Part shown: positions 227 through 7,036 of the stretch, in pieces
How the letters are laid out: each line of letters begins with the position of its first letter
How positions within the stretch are numbered: position 1 is the stretch's first letter
Assembly: GCA_029547205.1 (NCBI GenBank)
Contig: JAKPPT010000072.1
Span: forward strand, 62,001-126,000
Source: Spirochaetota bacterium
GTDB taxonomy: Bacteria > Spirochaetota > Spirochaetia > Treponematales > UBA12059
Direction of reading: 5' to 3'
DNA: 64,000 bases
Program-made: the position numbers and the translations under genes
The notes under the pieces: generated by a model
What the model was told of the DNA's origin: nothing
The model's input: only the letters and a program-made list of their open reading frames with translations
The model's database searches: none

Positions 227-1708
227 ATGAATACTAGTATTGAAAAAAAAGTATATGACTATAAACCCGATGCTGTTCGTTCTACAATAGTGCAAGCATT
301 ACGCAAGAAGCATGGTGAAGCAACTGTTGCAGATGTGATTGCAGCAACAGGACTTCCAAAATATCAGGTAGAAACGGAAATGCCAGCTTTAGTCGATGAA
401 TACAACGGTAGGCTTCGTGTAACTGATTCAGGTGAAATTTTATTTTCTTTTCCTCATGGGTTTACAAGCCGCTATAGAGGATTAGGAGTAACGTTAAAAA
501 AAATATTCTCTGCTGTAAAAAAAGGTGTTAAAGCAATTGCTGTTTTTTTATTTAAAGCATGGATTATGGTAATGCTTGTTGGCTACTTTGTTTTTTTTGT
601 TGCATTAGCATTACTCGCAGTGTTTGCAAGCTTTGCTGGCAGTTCATCTTCACGACGGGATAATCGAAGCAGCAGCTCTGGAGCAGGTGGTTTCCTGGCT
701 GTACGGGTAATTGAACTCATAGTTAGAATTTGGTTTTATAGTGAGCTATTTAAAACACCAGAAGAACGAGCTTCCGATTATTATAGACGACAGGAAGCTA
801 AAAGGAATTCACGGCCACTTCATAAAGCAATTTTTTCTTTTGTGTTTGGTGAACCTGATGTAAACAAAGATCATGATGTTTTACTAAAAAAAATCTTTGT
901 TGCCATGGTAAGGATGAAAAAAGGTATTATTACAATTGAGGATTTTATTGCGCTTACAGGTTTATCGCCAGAATCAGCAGAACAGGCTATATGCCGCTAT
1001 TTATATGAATTTGAAGGAAGTCCCGAAGTTTCAGAAGATGGAACATTATACTATGATTTTTCAAAGCTGCTTGTTCGACTGGATACTGAAAAGTCGATCA
1101 ACACTGTCTCTGCATTTAAGAAGCTGCAACCGTTTTCTGGGAATAATAAAAAAAGTAATACAACATTCGCGGTTATTAATGGCGTAAACTTGATCTTTGG
1201 CAGTTATTTTTTATTTCAAGCTTTACAGTATGATCCTGCAATGATTAAAACCGAATTTTCATATTTCTTTTATTTTACATTTAAATTATTTGCATCTTTT
1301 GGAGTTGAAAATCCACTGGCAGTAATAACATGGGTTCTTGGAGCTGTTCCATTTGTGTTTTCACTATTATTTTGGATTGTTCCTGCTGTGCGATCGTTGT
1401 TACTCAAACATTCCAATGAAGCTATAAAAGTAGAAAATGCAAGACGGTATGTATACACGCAGCTTGCTCATGCTCCGATTGAACTCGATGAATCTATTTT
1501 TAATGATGCTCCTGTGTTTGCTGTACCAGATTCTCAAAACATAAAGAAAGTACTAATGGAAACAGCAGTCTATGAAAAAGCTGATGTTTCTGAAAACGGT
1601 AAATATATACTTACCGATTATGGAAGACGTTATAAAGATATAGAAAGCCTTCGTGCAAAAAAAATAGTTACCGGACCGGGTTCAGTTATTTTTGATTCAG
1701 AATCGTAA
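227..1708 (+). CDS. Membrane protein with repeated winged-helix-like modules (unknown function)
   Basis: A 493-residue protein; its ATG is preceded by GGGAGG. Residues about 15-75 look like a small winged-helix unit (helices, a TGLPKYQVE turn, then a strand pair ending in GEILFSFP). A second copy at about 220-285 has TGLSPESAEQ and GTLYYDF, and a weaker third lies near the C-terminus. Between them are hydrophobic segments at about 103-136, 163-180, 318-338, 350-365 and 371-400, with a Ser/Arg-rich linker near 140-155. No catalytic motif is visible. From memory, the repeat pattern resembles a family of membrane proteins in cyanobacteria and plastids, but I could not test this. The 3' end overlaps the convergent gene by 23 bases. 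Confidence 0.6.
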   Translation: MNTSIEKKVYDYKPDAVRSTIVQALRKKHGEATVADVIAATGLPKYQVETEMPALVDEYNGRLRVTDSGEILFSFPHGFTSRYRGLGVTLKKIFSAVKKGVKAIAVFLFKAWIMVMLVGYFVFFVALALLAVFASFAGSSSSRRDNRSSSSGAGGFLAVRVIELIVRIWFYSELFKTPEERASDYYRRQEAKRNSRPLHKAIFSFVFGEPDVNKDHDVLLKKIFVAMVRMKKGIITIEDFIALTGLSPESAEQAICRYLYEFEGSPEVSEDGTLYYDFSKLLVRLDTEKSINTVSAFKKLQPFSGNNKKSNTTFAVINGVNLIFGSYFLFQALQYDPAMIKTEFSYFFYFTFKLFASFGVENPLAVITWVLGAVPFVFSLLFWIVPAVRSLLLKHSNEAIKVENARRYVYTQLAHAPIELDESIFNDAPVFAVPDSQNIKKVLMETAVYEKADVSENGKYILTDYGRRYKDIESLRAKKIVTGPGSVIFDSES

Positions 1709-2534
1709 GAGCGTTCGCAATAAATTGTTTGAGTTCTCCAATGCTGTATTCCATGGGTATAATACTTGGGGATTCTGGAGCTGGATTAAGGAGTACATTA
1801 CAGGCTAATGCTTGTGTAAATAATTCATGATAATTACTGCATGCTGGATAGATATACGGTCCATCATTAATAAATATTCCTTTACAATAATCGGTAAATT
1901 GTTTCCAGAAATCGGGGTTATAGCCTGATTGAGTAAAGTTAAGAAGACTATAAATACTGCGAGCGCCAGCATAATACTGCAGTGGCGCAATACAAAAAAG
2001 TTCCTGGTGTTCTCTGTAATAATCACGAGCAGTTTCAAACTGTTTTGTATCAGTAAAGAGCAATACAGAAAAGCTCAATGGGTATAAACCTGGTACAGTA
2101 AAAACACCGATACAGTGTGAGGGTAATGGTAAAAAAGGCCTTATTCGAACTGGTTGTATAGCGTTCGAAAAAGAATAGTCAGTTTGCCCGTTGTTCAATG
2201 GCCAGAGTTCTTTAAGTTTACCTGAATAATTAAAGCACGTTTTAAGCACATACATTGCAGCGTTTTCATTGGGCATATATAAATACTGATAATCAGCACC
2301 TAAATACTTTTGTAAAGCCTTTGTAAATCGAGCTTCGTATAAACCGGGATAGGTTGATGCAAGACCCTTCTCAATAGCATTTTTTGCATATAATTTTACT
2401 TTGTTTTCTTTATATGACAGTATACGAATACCATTATCAAGATATAAATCCAGAATTCTCTTACCAGAATTGCAATAGAGACGATTCCCGCGGATTCGAC
2501 GTATTGGTGGTAGCAAAGAATAAACATTATTCAT
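1686..2534 (-). CDS. Degenerate class III aminotransferase-like protein
   Basis: A 282-residue protein that starts 3 bases after the helicase stop, with AAGGA upstream. The N-terminal half follows the opening of class III (glutamate-1-semialdehyde type) PLP aminotransferases: a G-x-x-L-Y--SGKRILDLYLD-G segment, then A-I-E-K-G-L, then an E--FTKAL helix and an NENAAMYVLKT segment where the family has the small-domain-to-PLP-domain transition. The family is usually about 420-450 residues. Here the middle containing the PLP-binding lysine and the D-E--xGxGR region is missing or unrecognisable. It may be a structural remnant with a new role or a decaying enzyme. It is the last gene of the leftward cluster. 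Confidence 0.5.
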   Translation of the reverse strand: MNNVYSLLPPIRRIRGNRLYCNSGKRILDLYLDNGIRILSYKENKVKLYAKNAIEKGLASTYPGLYEARFTKALQKYLGADYQYLYMPNENAAMYVLKTCFNYSGKLKELWPLNNGQTDYSFSNAIQPVRIRPFLPLPSHCIGVFTVPGLYPLSFSVLLFTDTKQFETARDYYREHQELFCIAPLQYYAGARSIYSLLNFTQSGYNPDFWKQFTDYCKGIFINDGPYIYPACSNYHELFTQALACNVLLNPAPESPSIIPMEYSIGELKQFIANALTILNQK

Positions 2535-2537
2535 GGT

Positions 2538-4604
2538 CTAATCCTTAATTTTCATTAGTGAGTTTGTGTATTTGGGAATAAAAGTTTTCTCAAAACCATT
2601 CTCAAACGTAACATAAATGACGGTTTGTGCACCAGTGTTTTCAACTCGTTTTACCCATCCTGTTCCATATTCATCGTGGTAAACTTTTGTGCCTTTTTGC
2701 CATTCTGATTGCTTTTTAAGCTGATTTTTTTCTGCATCGATTGATAGTAATTTTTCAGGGATTTCGCTGAGAAATAGCGAAGGTTGAGTTTCTTGAATGT
2801 ATCCTCGCGAATAAGTATATTTTCGATACGTTAAGAATAATAAATCTTTTGCTCGTGTCAGTGCTACATAAAAAAGTCTTCGTTCTTCTTCAAGTTCATC
2901 ATCAAATTTATCAGTTCGTGGGAAGAGTCCCTGTTCTAATCCGGTTACAAAAACACAGGGGTATTCAAGACCTTTAGTGTTATGAATTGTTATCAGTGTA
3001 ACATAGTCATGTGATGGAGAGTTTTTTTCCTGTTTGTCCAGTACAGAAAATTCCAAAAATTGCTGGAGACCTTCCTGTGTTGCAGGGTAGGTATATGCAC
3101 TGGAAGCAAGTTCTTCAAGGTTTTTCTGTTTTTCATTATCTTCTTGATTGTATAAATCATCAATTCCGGTAATTGTGAATAATTTTTTAAAAAATAATCC
3201 CAAATTTTCTGATTGCTCCAGTAATGACTGTAATTTATTTATAATAGTTATAAATTGTTCAATACCCTGCATTATTTTTTTCGAAGAAAAAACACATTTT
3301 CTACATGCTTCCAATATAGGAATTTTGTGTTCATCACTATATGCAAGGAGCCTGGAAAATGTAACAGCACCAATGCCTCTTGCTGGTTTATTGATTATTC
3401 GTTTACATGCAACAATATCATTAGGATTATATATGCATGCTGCATATGCAAGTGCATCTTTTACTTCTTCCCGCTCAAAAAAGCGTAATGCACCAACTAC
3501 CTTAAAAGGAATATAGTGTTGTGTAAATACCTGTTCAAATACTCGTGATTGCGCATTGGTTCGGTATAAAATAGCAAAATCGGAGTATCGTCTTCCATTT
3601 TGAATTTCTTTATCAATAACTGATGCGCAAAAGTCTGCTTCTTCTGTATCGTTATTTACTACTTTTAAAACAGGTTTAAGACCGCCTTTTCGTACTGCAA
3701 CAAGCTCTTTCCCCATTCGGTTTACATTGTTGCTGACGACTGCATGTGCTGTATCAAGAATGGTCTGGTATGATCGATAATTTGTTACTAGCTTTATTAT
3801 TGTAGTATTCGGAAACGTTTGTGGAAATTCCAAAATATTATTTACTTCAGCGCCACGAAATTTGTATATGCTCTGGTCGTCATCACCAACTACACAGATT
3901 TTCGTTTGAGGTCCAGCAAGTGTTTTAAGTAATTGGAATTGAGCTATATTAGAATCTTGATATTCATCAACTAAAATATATGAAAAACGTTCATGTGTTC
4001 TTTGCTGGATTTCAGGATAGTGTTCGAGCACCTCGATAGGTTTTAGAATAAGATCGCCAAAATCGACATTCCCGGTTTCTGCTAATTTTTGGTTGTATTC
4101 AGCATAGTAGCGTGAAAAATCGGGAAAATATTTTTCAAACCTGGAAATGCCAGGGCTGTCAGGTAGCAACGCATAATCTTTTGCACGAGCAATAAGTCTT
4201 GCAATGTTTTTATGTTGTTGACTGTTCAAAGTAGGAAATAGTGATTCAATGAGATTTTCTGAGTCCTCATCATCATAAATCGAAAATGTGGGCTTTAGTC
4301 CTGCAAACGGTGCATGCTGGCGTAAAAACCAGGCTCCAAATGAGTGAAAGGTTCGTATCTGAACCTGTTCACAGGCTGGCTCTAATGCTATGGCGCGTTC
4401 TTGCATTTCTCGAGCTGCTTTGTTCGTGAAGGTAACAGCAAGAATAGCATAGGGGGAGATATGTTCGTGCGCTATGAGCCATGCAATTTTACATGTGATG
4501 ACGCGCGTTTTGCCAGAACCTGCTCCCGCAAGGATTAAAAGATTACTTGCATTACAGGTAACGGCCTCGCGTTGAGCTGGATTGAGTTCATCCAGTGCAG
4601 TCAT
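2538..4604 (-). CDS. UvrD/PcrA/Rep-family DNA helicase
   Basis: A 688-residue superfamily 1A helicase that unwinds DNA 3'-to-5' using ATP in repair and replication restart. Walker A AGAGSGKT is at residues 26-33. The Walker B/motif II region has DEYQDSN, motif III has GDDDQSIYKFRGA, motif IV has NYRS, motif V has TIHNTKGLE and motif VI has VALTRAKD. The C-terminus has a Tudor-like segment (GTKVYHDEYGTGWVKRVE) as in PcrA/UvrD, which contacts RNA polymerase in other bacteria. The length is near that of PcrA (about 720). The start overlaps the rimO stop by 4 bases (ATGA), so translation is likely coupled. PcrA, UvrD and Rep cannot be told apart by motif reading. Confidence 0.92.
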   Translation of the reverse strand: MTALDELNPAQREAVTCNASNLLILAGAGSGKTRVITCKIAWLIAHEHISPYAILAVTFTNKAAREMQERAIALEPACEQVQIRTFHSFGAWFLRQHAPFAGLKPTFSIYDDEDSENLIESLFPTLNSQQHKNIARLIARAKDYALLPDSPGISRFEKYFPDFSRYYAEYNQKLAETGNVDFGDLILKPIEVLEHYPEIQQRTHERFSYILVDEYQDSNIAQFQLLKTLAGPQTKICVVGDDDQSIYKFRGAEVNNILEFPQTFPNTTIIKLVTNYRSYQTILDTAHAVVSNNVNRMGKELVAVRKGGLKPVLKVVNNDTEEADFCASVIDKEIQNGRRYSDFAILYRTNAQSRVFEQVFTQHYIPFKVVGALRFFEREEVKDALAYAACIYNPNDIVACKRIINKPARGIGAVTFSRLLAYSDEHKIPILEACRKCVFSSKKIMQGIEQFITIINKLQSLLEQSENLGLFFKKLFTITGIDDLYNQEDNEKQKNLEELASSAYTYPATQEGLQQFLEFSVLDKQEKNSPSHDYVTLITIHNTKGLEYPCVFVTGLEQGLFPRTDKFDDELEEERRLFYVALTRAKDLLFLTYRKYTYSRGYIQETQPSLFLSEIPEKLLSIDAEKNQLKKQSEWQKGTKVYHDEYGTGWVKRVENTGAQTVIYVTFENGFEKTFIPKYTNSLMKIKD

Positions 4605-5908
4605 GAAATCACAATTCCTTCAAGATCGATGCCTCGTACTGCAACAATACGTGCTGTAACGACACTACCTGGCTTTGCTGTACATCCTGTCAGAACCACA
4701 GCCCCATCTACTTCGGGTGCTTGCATGAATGCTCTTCCAATACAGAGATCGCTATCGGTAATTGTTTCTTCAATGAGTACTGTCTGTTCTGTGCCAATGT
4801 AGCGGCGAAGCCGCTCTTGGGATATATATTGCTGAATTTCTTCTATTTGCTTTCTTCGCTGCTGTGCTAATCGTTTAGGAACTCGAGGTTTCATACCATA
4901 CGCTTCGGTATTTTCTTCACGGCTGTATTCAAACGCTCCAAGCCAATCAAACTGCGCTTGTTTTTGAAAATTAAGAAGTTCCTGGAAGTCATCTTCGGAT
5001 TCGCCAGGAAATCCAACTAAAAAGGTAGACCGGATAACAGCATGAGGGAGCTGGTTTCTAATGGTTTCCAGCAATGTGAGATACTGTGTGCTGGTACCTT
5101 TTCTGTTCATAGCACGTAAAATCTTCTCTGACGCATGCTGGAATGGAATATCAAAATAAGGGATTATCCGTTTATCCTGTTGCATGCAGGAAAGTATATC
5201 AAGTGGAAAATGATCAGGGTGCATATAGAGCAGTCGTATAACAAAATTGCCTTTAAGTTCTCCAAGTTTCGAAAGGAGTTCATAGAGGCTCGTTCCACTA
5301 TCCTTCCCATACGATCCAACATCCTGCCCAATAAATGTTAATTCATAGGTACCAAGTTCTAAAAGCTTTTTACATTCAGTGATTATATGATCTAAGGGAC
5401 GAGACGATAATTCACCCCGGATTAGTGGAATAGCGCAGTACGAACAATGGTTACTGCATCCTTCGGAAATTTTTACATATGCCTGTCCCTTAAAACCAAA
5501 AAAGTAATCACGATTTTCAGGAAGATAGTGACCTGGACGCGAATATTTGCTGAGCTTTTGTCCCTTGACAGCAGAATCTACAACGCTGAGAACGTCATCG
5601 AGTTTACCATTTCCAGCAAAGCCGTCGAGTTCAGGCATTTCGGTTGCTAGTTCGTTGCAGTACCGTTGAACGAGGCAACCAGCTGCAATTATTTTTTTTT
5701 GAGGATACGTGTTACGATAGTATAACAATGTATCAATAGCTTCGGATTTTGCACTTTCAATAAATCCACAGGTATTTACTATAATAATATCAGCTCGATT
5801 TGGTTCATAAACAACCGAATAGCCACATTTTGAAAGCTTTGTTGCTAGTTCTTCAGAATCTACCTGATTTTTAGCACAGCCAAGGGTATCAATAAATATA
5901 GTAACCAT
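4601..5908 (-). CDS. rimO: Ribosomal protein S12 methylthiotransferase RimO
   Basis: A 435-residue radical SAM methylthiotransferase. The N-terminal UPF0004 domain begins with TLGCAKNQVDSE and has two further cysteines (NTCGF and AAGCLVQRY) that would bind the second 4Fe-4S cluster. The radical SAM cluster motif is EGCSNHCSYCAIP, and a TRAM domain occupies about residues 365-435. The C-A-K-N-x-x-D-S signature and TRAM length favour RimO, which modifies an aspartate of ribosomal protein S12, over MiaB. It lies 6 bases downstream of the RodZ-like gene and overlaps the helicase gene by 4 bases. Confidence 0.93.
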   Translation of the reverse strand: MVTIFIDTLGCAKNQVDSEELATKLSKCGYSVVYEPNRADIIIVNTCGFIESAKSEAIDTLLYYRNTYPQKKIIAAGCLVQRYCNELATEMPELDGFAGNGKLDDVLSVVDSAVKGQKLSKYSRPGHYLPENRDYFFGFKGQAYVKISEGCSNHCSYCAIPLIRGELSSRPLDHIITECKKLLELGTYELTFIGQDVGSYGKDSGTSLYELLSKLGELKGNFVIRLLYMHPDHFPLDILSCMQQDKRIIPYFDIPFQHASEKILRAMNRKGTSTQYLTLLETIRNQLPHAVIRSTFLVGFPGESEDDFQELLNFQKQAQFDWLGAFEYSREENTEAYGMKPRVPKRLAQQRRKQIEEIQQYISQERLRRYIGTEQTVLIEETITDSDLCIGRAFMQAPEVDGAVVLTGCTAKPGSVVTARIVAVRGIDLEGIVIS

Positions 5909-5914
5909 GACAGA

Positions 5915-7036
5915 TTAATCCAGCTGGTAGAGGCCGAGTGTCCATGTTCCATCGTCCGCTTGAGTCCAGCGTAATGCTCGAACAGATACTTCTCCCGGGT
6001 TTCCCAATTCAATATCTGCATTTTGTCCACCAGATGCCATGATACTGATTTTAGGAGAGCCTGCATTGCTGCACCAGATAATCATTGAGTTAGTAGCATT
6101 GATAGTTACAATATCACCTTTTCTAAAGTACTTTTCTTCACGAGTTTTTCGGTCAATTTCATACCTAAACATTGCATAGTTACGAAAGGTAATATTGGCA
6201 GTAAATGGGAATGGGCTTCGTTTGCCGGTAAATACTGCTGTAAGAAAAGCACCGCTTTTTTCGTTAGATTTTGCAGGAACTGATGTAGAAACAGCAACAG
6301 GATTAGCTTCTGGCATTTCAGTTTTTGCTGCACTTGCAAGAGCGAGTGTGTCTGCAGCAGAAAATCTTACTAGTGCACCTACCGATGGTGCATTTTTCTG
6401 AAAATCGCTGATAAAAGCATAGAGCTCTGGTATATTGTCTTTATCTAAATCGATGCTGCCTTCTTCTCCAAGGAGAAAATTACGAGTTCCGGTTGGTGTC
6501 TGAAACAGGACTGTGTCATCAATTTGTTTTAGCACGATTACATATTTTTCATTATTGTATGTAACGGTAATTGAATCGCCAACATAGAGACGTTTTTCTA
6601 ATGTTTTAGTATCTAAAGTATATACTACAGGCGCATGAACTGTTTCCTGTGCTGATGTAGTATTTTTTTTGCTTAAAATTGCAAAGAGTACTATTGCAAT
6701 AAGAGCGATACCGAGGCAGCTGCCAATGATCCAATACAAAAGAGAATTTGTATTTTTACTCGTTTTATCATTGAGTAATTGTTCAACAGGAACATCTTGC
6801 TCTTGAATTCGTAAGCCTCGAAATGTATTTACAATTGATTGCGCATCAAGGCCAAGGTAATCGGCATAATTTTTTAAGAATCCAACAACATAGGTGTCTC
6901 CAGGGAAAATGCCAAAATTTTCTTCTTCAAGAGCTTGTATATAGCGTGGTGAAATATTAGTTTCTGCTGCTACTTGAGAAATTGAATAACCCAGAGTTGT
7001 ACGCGCTTCTTTGAGTTTCTGTCCTATGTTTGTCAT
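5915..7036 (-). CDS. RodZ-like membrane protein with N-terminal helix-turn-helix
   Basis: A 373-residue protein. Residues 1-75 form a Cro/C1-type helix-turn-helix with the RodZ pattern (GQKLKEARTTLGYSISQVA, then ISPRYIQALEEENF, then FLKNYADYLGLD). One transmembrane helix follows at about 99-121, then a long predicted periplasmic part ending in a beta-rich domain at about 265-373. In RodZ the helix-turn-helix binds MreB and the periplasmic end helps localise cell-wall synthesis. The C-terminal domain is longer than in Escherichia coli RodZ. It is followed closely by rimO. The architecture is firm; the cell-shape role is inferred from the family. Confidence 0.8.
   Translation of the reverse strand: MTNIGQKLKEARTTLGYSISQVAAETNISPRYIQALEEENFGIFPGDTYVVGFLKNYADYLGLDAQSIVNTFRGLRIQEQDVPVEQLLNDKTSKNTNSLLYWIIGSCLGIALIAIVLFAILSKKNTTSAQETVHAPVVYTLDTKTLEKRLYVGDSITVTYNNEKYVIVLKQIDDTVLFQTPTGTRNFLLGEEGSIDLDKDNIPELYAFISDFQKNAPSVGALVRFSAADTLALASAAKTEMPEANPVAVSTSVPAKSNEKSGAFLTAVFTGKRSPFPFTANITFRNYAMFRYEIDRKTREEKYFRKGDIVTINATNSMIIWCSNAGSPKISIMASGGQNADIELGNPGEVSVRALRWTQADDGTWTLGLYQLD

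Follow-up and report, generated by a model that had tools for sequence, protein, structure and literature searches.

Positions 1686–2534 of the window (the whole 64,000-nucleotide stretch of Spirochaetota DNA analysed here) encode, on the minus strand, a half-size protein of 282 residues that is very probably a non-catalytic miniature of the aminotransferase fold. Confidence and doubt are evenly balanced for the fuller reading that we prefer, in which this decommissioned miniature aminotransferase would serve a motility-linked process as a non-catalytic scaffold, acting together with small membrane proteins. The features of the window that bear on the gene are as follows.

1686–2534, minus strand: predicted half-size, Lys-less, GSAM-like pseudoenzyme of class III aminotransferase fold, 282 aa (ORF, family profile and fold models)
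2238–2504, minus strand: residues 11–99, comprising the N-terminal part of the small domain and the first elements of the large domain, aligned with GSAM (L178) 37–125 and including R13, R15 and Y20 (hhalign E 1.2e-11)
1989–2228, minus strand: residues 103–182, shrunken large domain with unrecognisable PLP lysine motif (48-relative alignment; low pLDDT at 138–152)
1689–1988, minus strand: residues 183–282, C-terminal small-domain segment with the family motifs GPYL and PSIVP (C-terminal hhalign, window residues 232–276)
2542–2546, minus strand: AAGGA, ribosome-binding-like, 7 nt 5′ of the ATG of the half-size gene (sequence reading)
2538–4604, minus strand: UvrD/PcrA helicase gene, directly upstream with a 3 nt gap (PF00580 E 1.1e-82, PF13361 E 5.4e-68)
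4601–5908, minus strand: rimO-like radical SAM gene (profile match; TIGR01125 is over its cut-off at the same place in genome G000)
5915–7036, minus strand: RodZ-like gene with HTH_25 at its N-terminus (NF041534 below its cut-off)

The gene and its neighbourhood

The open reading frame runs from an ATG at 2534 to a stop at 1686, with 282 codons and zero internal stops, and the plus-strand reading of the same interval has 17 stops. This bears out the uninterrupted 282-residue frame claimed in an earlier note on this DNA, which gave no strand. The gene is the last of a minus-strand run in the order rodZ-like, rimO, uvrD, half-size gene. The same note had placed it in an operon with DNA repair and ribosome modification genes; the UvrD/PcrA and RimO-like neighbours are as it described, and the operon itself is suggested by strand and spacing, from which we infer that the four genes may form a single transcript. 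The window's own genome has a single copy of the half-size gene. In another genome, G002, there is a second, apparently broken copy (C35:464–1094, with a TAG within one piece) besides the copy on C45.

Sequence homology to GSAM

Taken alone, the window protein matches the glutamate-1-semialdehyde aminotransferase (GSAM) model TIGR00713 (hemL) over residues 11–81 at E 0.045 and 12.4 bits, against a curated cut-off of 527.3 bits that places it outside hemL, and it matches the PDB GSAM 2epj at E 0.25. Neither Pfam nor PHROGs gives a match up to E 1. The best hit of a single-sequence phmmer search of the PDB was an unrelated ligase (E 0.076), too weak to settle homology, and scans of viral contigs and a first scan of genome contigs returned zero relatives. 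As single-sequence searches were too weak, family profiles were used instead. A 36-member family profile has 28 PDB matches with E no higher than 0.01, and 27 of these are of aminotransferase type (the other is an aminopeptidase, E 0.006); the first five matches are all GSAMs, with a best E of 7.8e-11. Searched individually, 20 of the 36 members match hemL (best E 5.1e-9) and nine match PF00202 at E up to 0.01 (best 1.5e-6). The N-terminal likeness to GSAM that had been noticed from the sequence is thus weak for the single protein and clear for the family.

Profile alignment by hhalign, against a GSAM alignment built in this analysis, extends this to both ends of the protein. Uncut, it pairs window residues 11–99 with residues 37–125 of GSAM L178 (97.4%, E 1.2e-11) and covers the N-terminal block only. 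With the C-terminal parts alone, four cuttings all pair window residues 232–276 with the GSAM C-terminus (E 1.7e-6 to 2.1e-5, probability 77–90%), and the middle of the half-size protein has no sequence-level alignment to GSAM. The idea that the protein is an N-terminal half does not survive these matches, since the C-terminal end also corresponds to the GSAM end, which argues for an internal deletion rather than a missing second half. Together the sequence matches indicate homology to the class III aminotransferase fold beyond chance.

Predicted fold

An AlphaFold2 model of the window protein, built with 66 Treponema-type relatives, has a pLDDT of 76.9 and a pTM of 0.72 and is weakest at residues 138–152. 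The top Foldseek match of this model is a class III aminotransferase (E 5.7e-7), and re-examination of the Foldseek matches by VIA-align gives Z 16.5 for 4zm4 and Z 15.9 for GSAM 2e7u (rmsd 3.5, 257 of 282 residues aligned over 28–424). The model of a relative from Treponema socranskii is predicted with a pLDDT of 92.0 and a pTM of 0.86; its best VIA-align match is GSAM 2e7u (Z 18.7, rmsd 3.2, 256 of 265 residues over 21–424), with the remaining class III aminotransferases within about 1 to 2 Z units of it, and Foldseek ranks an ornithine aminotransferase first for it (E 4.2e-9).

Both models have a fold-type I, class III aminotransferase fold, so that structure prediction, which had been proposed as a check, recovers the fold instead of refuting the likeness. 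In the models the whole chain appears as a co-linear miniature of a class III aminotransferase, shortened by about 148 residues across the aligned region. The description of a half-size aminotransferase-like protein therefore stands as regards the class III fold and needs amending as regards its extent: what is predicted is the whole fold in miniature, with both small-domain parts and a shrunken large domain.

Missing catalytic lysine

Conservation was read from an alignment of 48 relatives, which excludes the window's own locus (L001) and two loci cut by contig ends (L016 and L017). R13, R15, Y20 and P260 are each present in 48 of 48 and G225 in 47. The best lysine column is K51, at 37 of 48, and it is located in the N-terminal block. 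The PLP lysine motif of GSAM, GKIIGGG, is absent from the half-size family both in this alignment and on direct reading, and the spacing between the counterparts of residues 102 and 189 ranges from 55 to 108 residues (median 77). With the motif gone and no lysine column above that of K51, the PLP lysine region is as unrecognisable in the family as it had seemed in the single sequence. Judged from the missing residue, a Schiff base between PLP and lysine would be impossible in the half-size protein.

The protein is thus similar to GSAM/HemL in its ~90 N-terminal residues, its C-terminal end and its predicted fold, but it is much shorter, and NSGTEA and AGTLSGNP are unrecognisable along with the lysine motif. 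Its likeness to PF00202 is carried by the nine matching family members, whereas the window protein has no such match and the catalytic centre is absent. Other fold-type I proteins without the lysine, such as the dead subunit of serine palmitoyltransferase, are partnered by an active enzyme and have a large domain of almost full length. That subunit and the half-size protein have in common a PLP fold without the lysine, but the half-size protein is miniaturised and is present where no class III enzyme was found (see below).

Longer Lys-less relatives

In other classes of the phylum the family profile finds Lys-less proteins of 388–398 residues (L211–L216 and L221), as well as a near-full-length relative cut by a contig end (L209) and a protein of 359 residues (L094). 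The position of the PLP Lys is occupied by N, S or T in all nine near-full-length relatives of other classes, and the DE of FDEV is retained in eight of the nine. In locus L211 the near-full-length Lys-less GSAM-like gene lies at 1282–2454 on the minus strand. In six genomes (G140, G111, G159, G147, G098 and G132) the gene after the near-full-length Lys-less one encodes the same small membrane protein that accompanies the half-size gene. The profile also recovers proteins of 257–312 residues in the other classes (L203–L208, L210 and L095) and matches ordinary GSAMs (L217, L218, L219, L220 and L222).

In a tree of the N-terminal parts, the bootstrap of which is unsettled, the 21 half-size rows form one clade (96/96), and the split between the Lys-less side and the GSAMs is weak (88/73); L094 and three of the six short proteins group with the GSAMs. 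Because of this weak split and these placements, a single loss of the lysine is no more than a possibility.

Distribution and selection

We sampled 96 genomes of the order, including the window's own, and 296 of the phylum, of which 118 belong to the class, which we take to be Spirochaetia. In the order sample a search with the single sequence finds matches in 80 genomes and the 36-member profile in 87; six of the 87 (G044, G055, G058, G076, G085 and G093) have full-length-enzyme matches only, which leaves the half-size gene in 81 of 96. Across the phylum 192 of the 296 genomes match the profile, and outside the class many of these matches are ordinary enzymes. Of the 118 class genomes, 108 have a match with an E of at most 5.9e-15, and all ten misses are in family f13, which presumably resembles Sphaerochaeta. 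The 108 include genomes of 0.9–1.9 Mb from family f7, which we take to be Borrelia-like, and the gene is kept in reduced genomes of 0.9–1.1 Mb (G301, G326 and G032, the last of 1,139,633 bases).

The frame is present in all 50 loci of the order (L001–L050), which were chosen as matches. A later scan of genome contigs gave 167 relatives, 80 of which, titled Treponema, Spirochaetaceae or Spirochaetales, were kept. Selection was assessed on 79 coding sequences (77 of the 80 kept loci, L131, L140 and L147 being left out, and two from f7), all of them free of internal stops. Omega is 0.05–0.29 in 40 of 45 similar pairs, the other five having saturated dS; these values are rough, as pairs have members in common and dS is often high, and they apply to the relatives only, the window copy being without a close relative. 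The comparison of dN/dS among relatives, also proposed as a check, thus points to purifying selection, with neutral evolution not seen in the 40 scorable pairs, and for the family we can agree with the earlier note that the gene is maintained and not decaying.

Small membrane proteins

The commonest companion of the half-size gene encodes a membrane protein of ~100 residues with three hydrophobic segments by eye. Searches with 15 members gave single-member matches only and no convincing family. Matches to it occur in 78 genomes, and 75 are left at E below 1e-6 after three weak ones are dropped. In 59 of the 75 (52 in the class and seven in other classes) its gene lies directly downstream of the half-size gene on the same strand, at a match-to-match distance of -7 to 227 nt; it is elsewhere in eight genomes, including G153 at 1.4 kb, and a further eight are without usable coordinates. 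It is also present in 66 of the 80 loci kept from the contig scan. In the window's own genome the membrane partner is a weak match 10 kb off (E 1.5e-8), and it was not detected in the f7 genomes, which carry the half-size gene and FliG. On this arrangement we think it somewhat probable that the half-size protein and the ~100-residue membrane protein form a functional pair.

Two other membrane proteins are found nearby. One, of ~80 residues with a GIADIKD motif, is encoded downstream of the half-size gene in ten loci, mostly after the first membrane protein (L033, 3573–3827, plus strand; L085, 1841–2083, minus strand; and L022, L080, L081, L083, L084, L086, L087 and L088). The other, a different protein of ~136 residues, is close by in many Treponema loci (L037, L038, L043, L045 and L096 among others); it has 77 matches, in which overlapping loci are counted repeatedly.

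Co-loss with FliG

FliG_C (PF01706) was used as the marker of flagella in the 178 class genomes that make up the union of the order and phylum draws. Of the 29 FliG-less genomes 21 lack the half-size gene, as against four of the 149 FliG-bearing ones (Fisher p 4e-17, without kinship correction, the FliG-less genomes forming two clades, 17 genomes in part of f4 and 12 in f13). Its loss is thus enriched where flagella have been lost. The four FliG-bearing genomes that miss it are incomplete drafts (G003, 72% complete; G022, 64%; G055, 90%; G058, 91%). G047 and G095 have weak FliG matches and were scored as FliG-less, although one of the two passes the cut-off (80 of 96 are over it); moving G047 to the FliG-bearing group gives 21 of 28 against four of 150. 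Eight of the 29 FliG-less genomes (G047, G049, G073, G082, G088, G091, G288 and G342) retain the half-size gene, so it is not strictly flagellar and does not occur only with flagella. The ~100-residue membrane protein is in none of the 29, and in FliG-bearing genomes it is in 60 of 79 from the order draw and 59 of 106 from the class part of the phylum draw. Outside the class, G140 (a draft that is 88% complete) has a near-full-length relative and the membrane protein, and no FliG match.

General gene loss does not account for the pattern, because among the 29 FliG-less genomes 27 have a match to rimO, used as a control, that passes its cut-off, and the remaining two, G038 and G047, have fragments that score below it. 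This control is imperfect, as rimO is over the cut-off in ten of 13 FliG-bearing genomes, with G032 and G213 below it and no match in G301. Cell-wall loss was considered as a cause and rejected for f4, since all 17 FliG-less genomes of that family keep PF00905 transpeptidase matches (that of G091 being a fragment). In f13 five of the 12 genomes have such matches, and the other seven are without PF00905 transpeptidases as well. A motility-linked process for the half-size protein is therefore a tentative reading, held at a little below even confidence, of a correlation that spans two clades and has eight exceptions.

Alternative interpretations

A different role for the same fold would be that of a ligand-binding or metabolite sensor, in which the remaining small-domain cleft binds an amino acid or a tRNA-linked metabolite and motility plays no part. 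The strict conservation of R13, R15 and Y20 is in keeping with this, as are the translation-related neighbours of some lineages: in L076 (f7) the half-size gene is flanked by gatB and by rplM-rpsI, in both L043 and L045 it comes after gatB, and L031 (2231–5751, in a 1.14 Mb genome) reads half-size gene, membrane protein, tsaD, alr. However, it is mainly the large domain that forms the active-site cleft of class III aminotransferases, and the half-size protein has lost much of that domain; nor does a sensor predict co-loss with FliG. We regard this role as unlikely.

Somewhat less likely again is a regulatory or structural partner of the UvrD/PcrA helicase in DNA repair. Counting the window's own locus, 34 of 50 loci of the order have uvrD immediately upstream of the half-size gene, as do 13 of 20 further loci, but in the loci read from f7 and from f3, which is presumably Treponemataceae-type, uvrD is not adjacent, and gatB (L043, L045 and L076) or other genes are found instead; moreover, the FliG-less genomes largely keep the rimO of the same run while most of them lose the half-size gene. 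The uvrD/rimO context says little on function because it is one among several contexts; in L095, for example, a relative is placed between flhB and murG. Candidate fusions with UvrD (ORFs of 384–922 aa) were rejected as long open frames that overlap a separate uvrD frame.

It is very improbable that the protein pairs, as a catalytically dead subunit, with a full-length class III aminotransferase in a heterodimer. The fold is the same and two full-length class III aminotransferases are encoded elsewhere in the window's own genome, but four genomes with the half-size gene (G024, G027, G032 and G166) have zero matches in a hemL search, which finds the other class III enzyme of the window genome (C130:344898) at E 5.7e-46. 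The protein is therefore not an inactive partner in a class III heterodimer in those four genomes, and this reading was dropped. Least probable of all is a decaying remnant or annotation artefact, which would suit the long branch of the window copy (2.09) and its S40, where 46 of 48 relatives have G, but which is refuted for the family by purifying selection and by retention of the gene across the order and in the reduced genomes; the window copy itself still has R13, R15, Y20 and P260.

Proposed role of the half-size protein

For the reading that we prefer, of a non-catalytic scaffold working with small membrane proteins, the following steps can be suggested. From an ancestor of the GSAM kind, the PLP lysine and the greater part of the large domain would have disappeared, whereas both small-domain parts and the overall fold were retained, as sequence and models show; the longer Lys-less relatives point to the lysine having been lost first. 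The resulting protein would most likely be a scaffold or adaptor. Since its gene stands directly before that of the membrane protein in most genomes with both, we infer that it may bind the membrane protein at the cytoplasmic membrane face, and the co-loss with FliG is consistent with the two supporting a flagellated lifestyle.

A larger picture is possible, although we are distinctly more doubtful of it. The phylum may keep the steps from enzyme to scaffold, as Lys-less near-full-length proteins, then proteins of about 300 residues and then of about 265, and the flagellated members of the class may have a membrane-associated module, made up of the pseudoenzyme and one or two small membrane proteins, that is needed for life with periplasmic flagella or a helical cell body.

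With the preferred reading, a fold, an origin and a partner open to testing would be assigned to a gene that is kept in reduced spirochaete genomes and whose own sequence here is without a Pfam match. As a pseudoenzyme it would be unusual in having shed about a third of its ancestral length, with longer Lys-less relatives surviving in sister classes. If the link to motility is true, an unrecognised component would be added to a long-studied system.

In the partial texts covered by a literature search we met nothing on the half-size gene, and no claim is made that it is absent from print. In these texts BB0340, which may or may not be the gene between gatB and rplM, is described as a sulfoxide or methionine disulfide reductase; Tp0679, which is named TmpB, is probably another gene than the half-size gene.

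We also note a convergent gene at 227–1708 on the plus strand of the window, which overlaps the 3′ end of the half-size gene by 23 nt and encodes a protein of 493 residues. A Pfam search with this protein gave nothing over cut-off; its homologs share loci with the half-size gene in six instances (L004, L011, L012, L023, L041 and L048).
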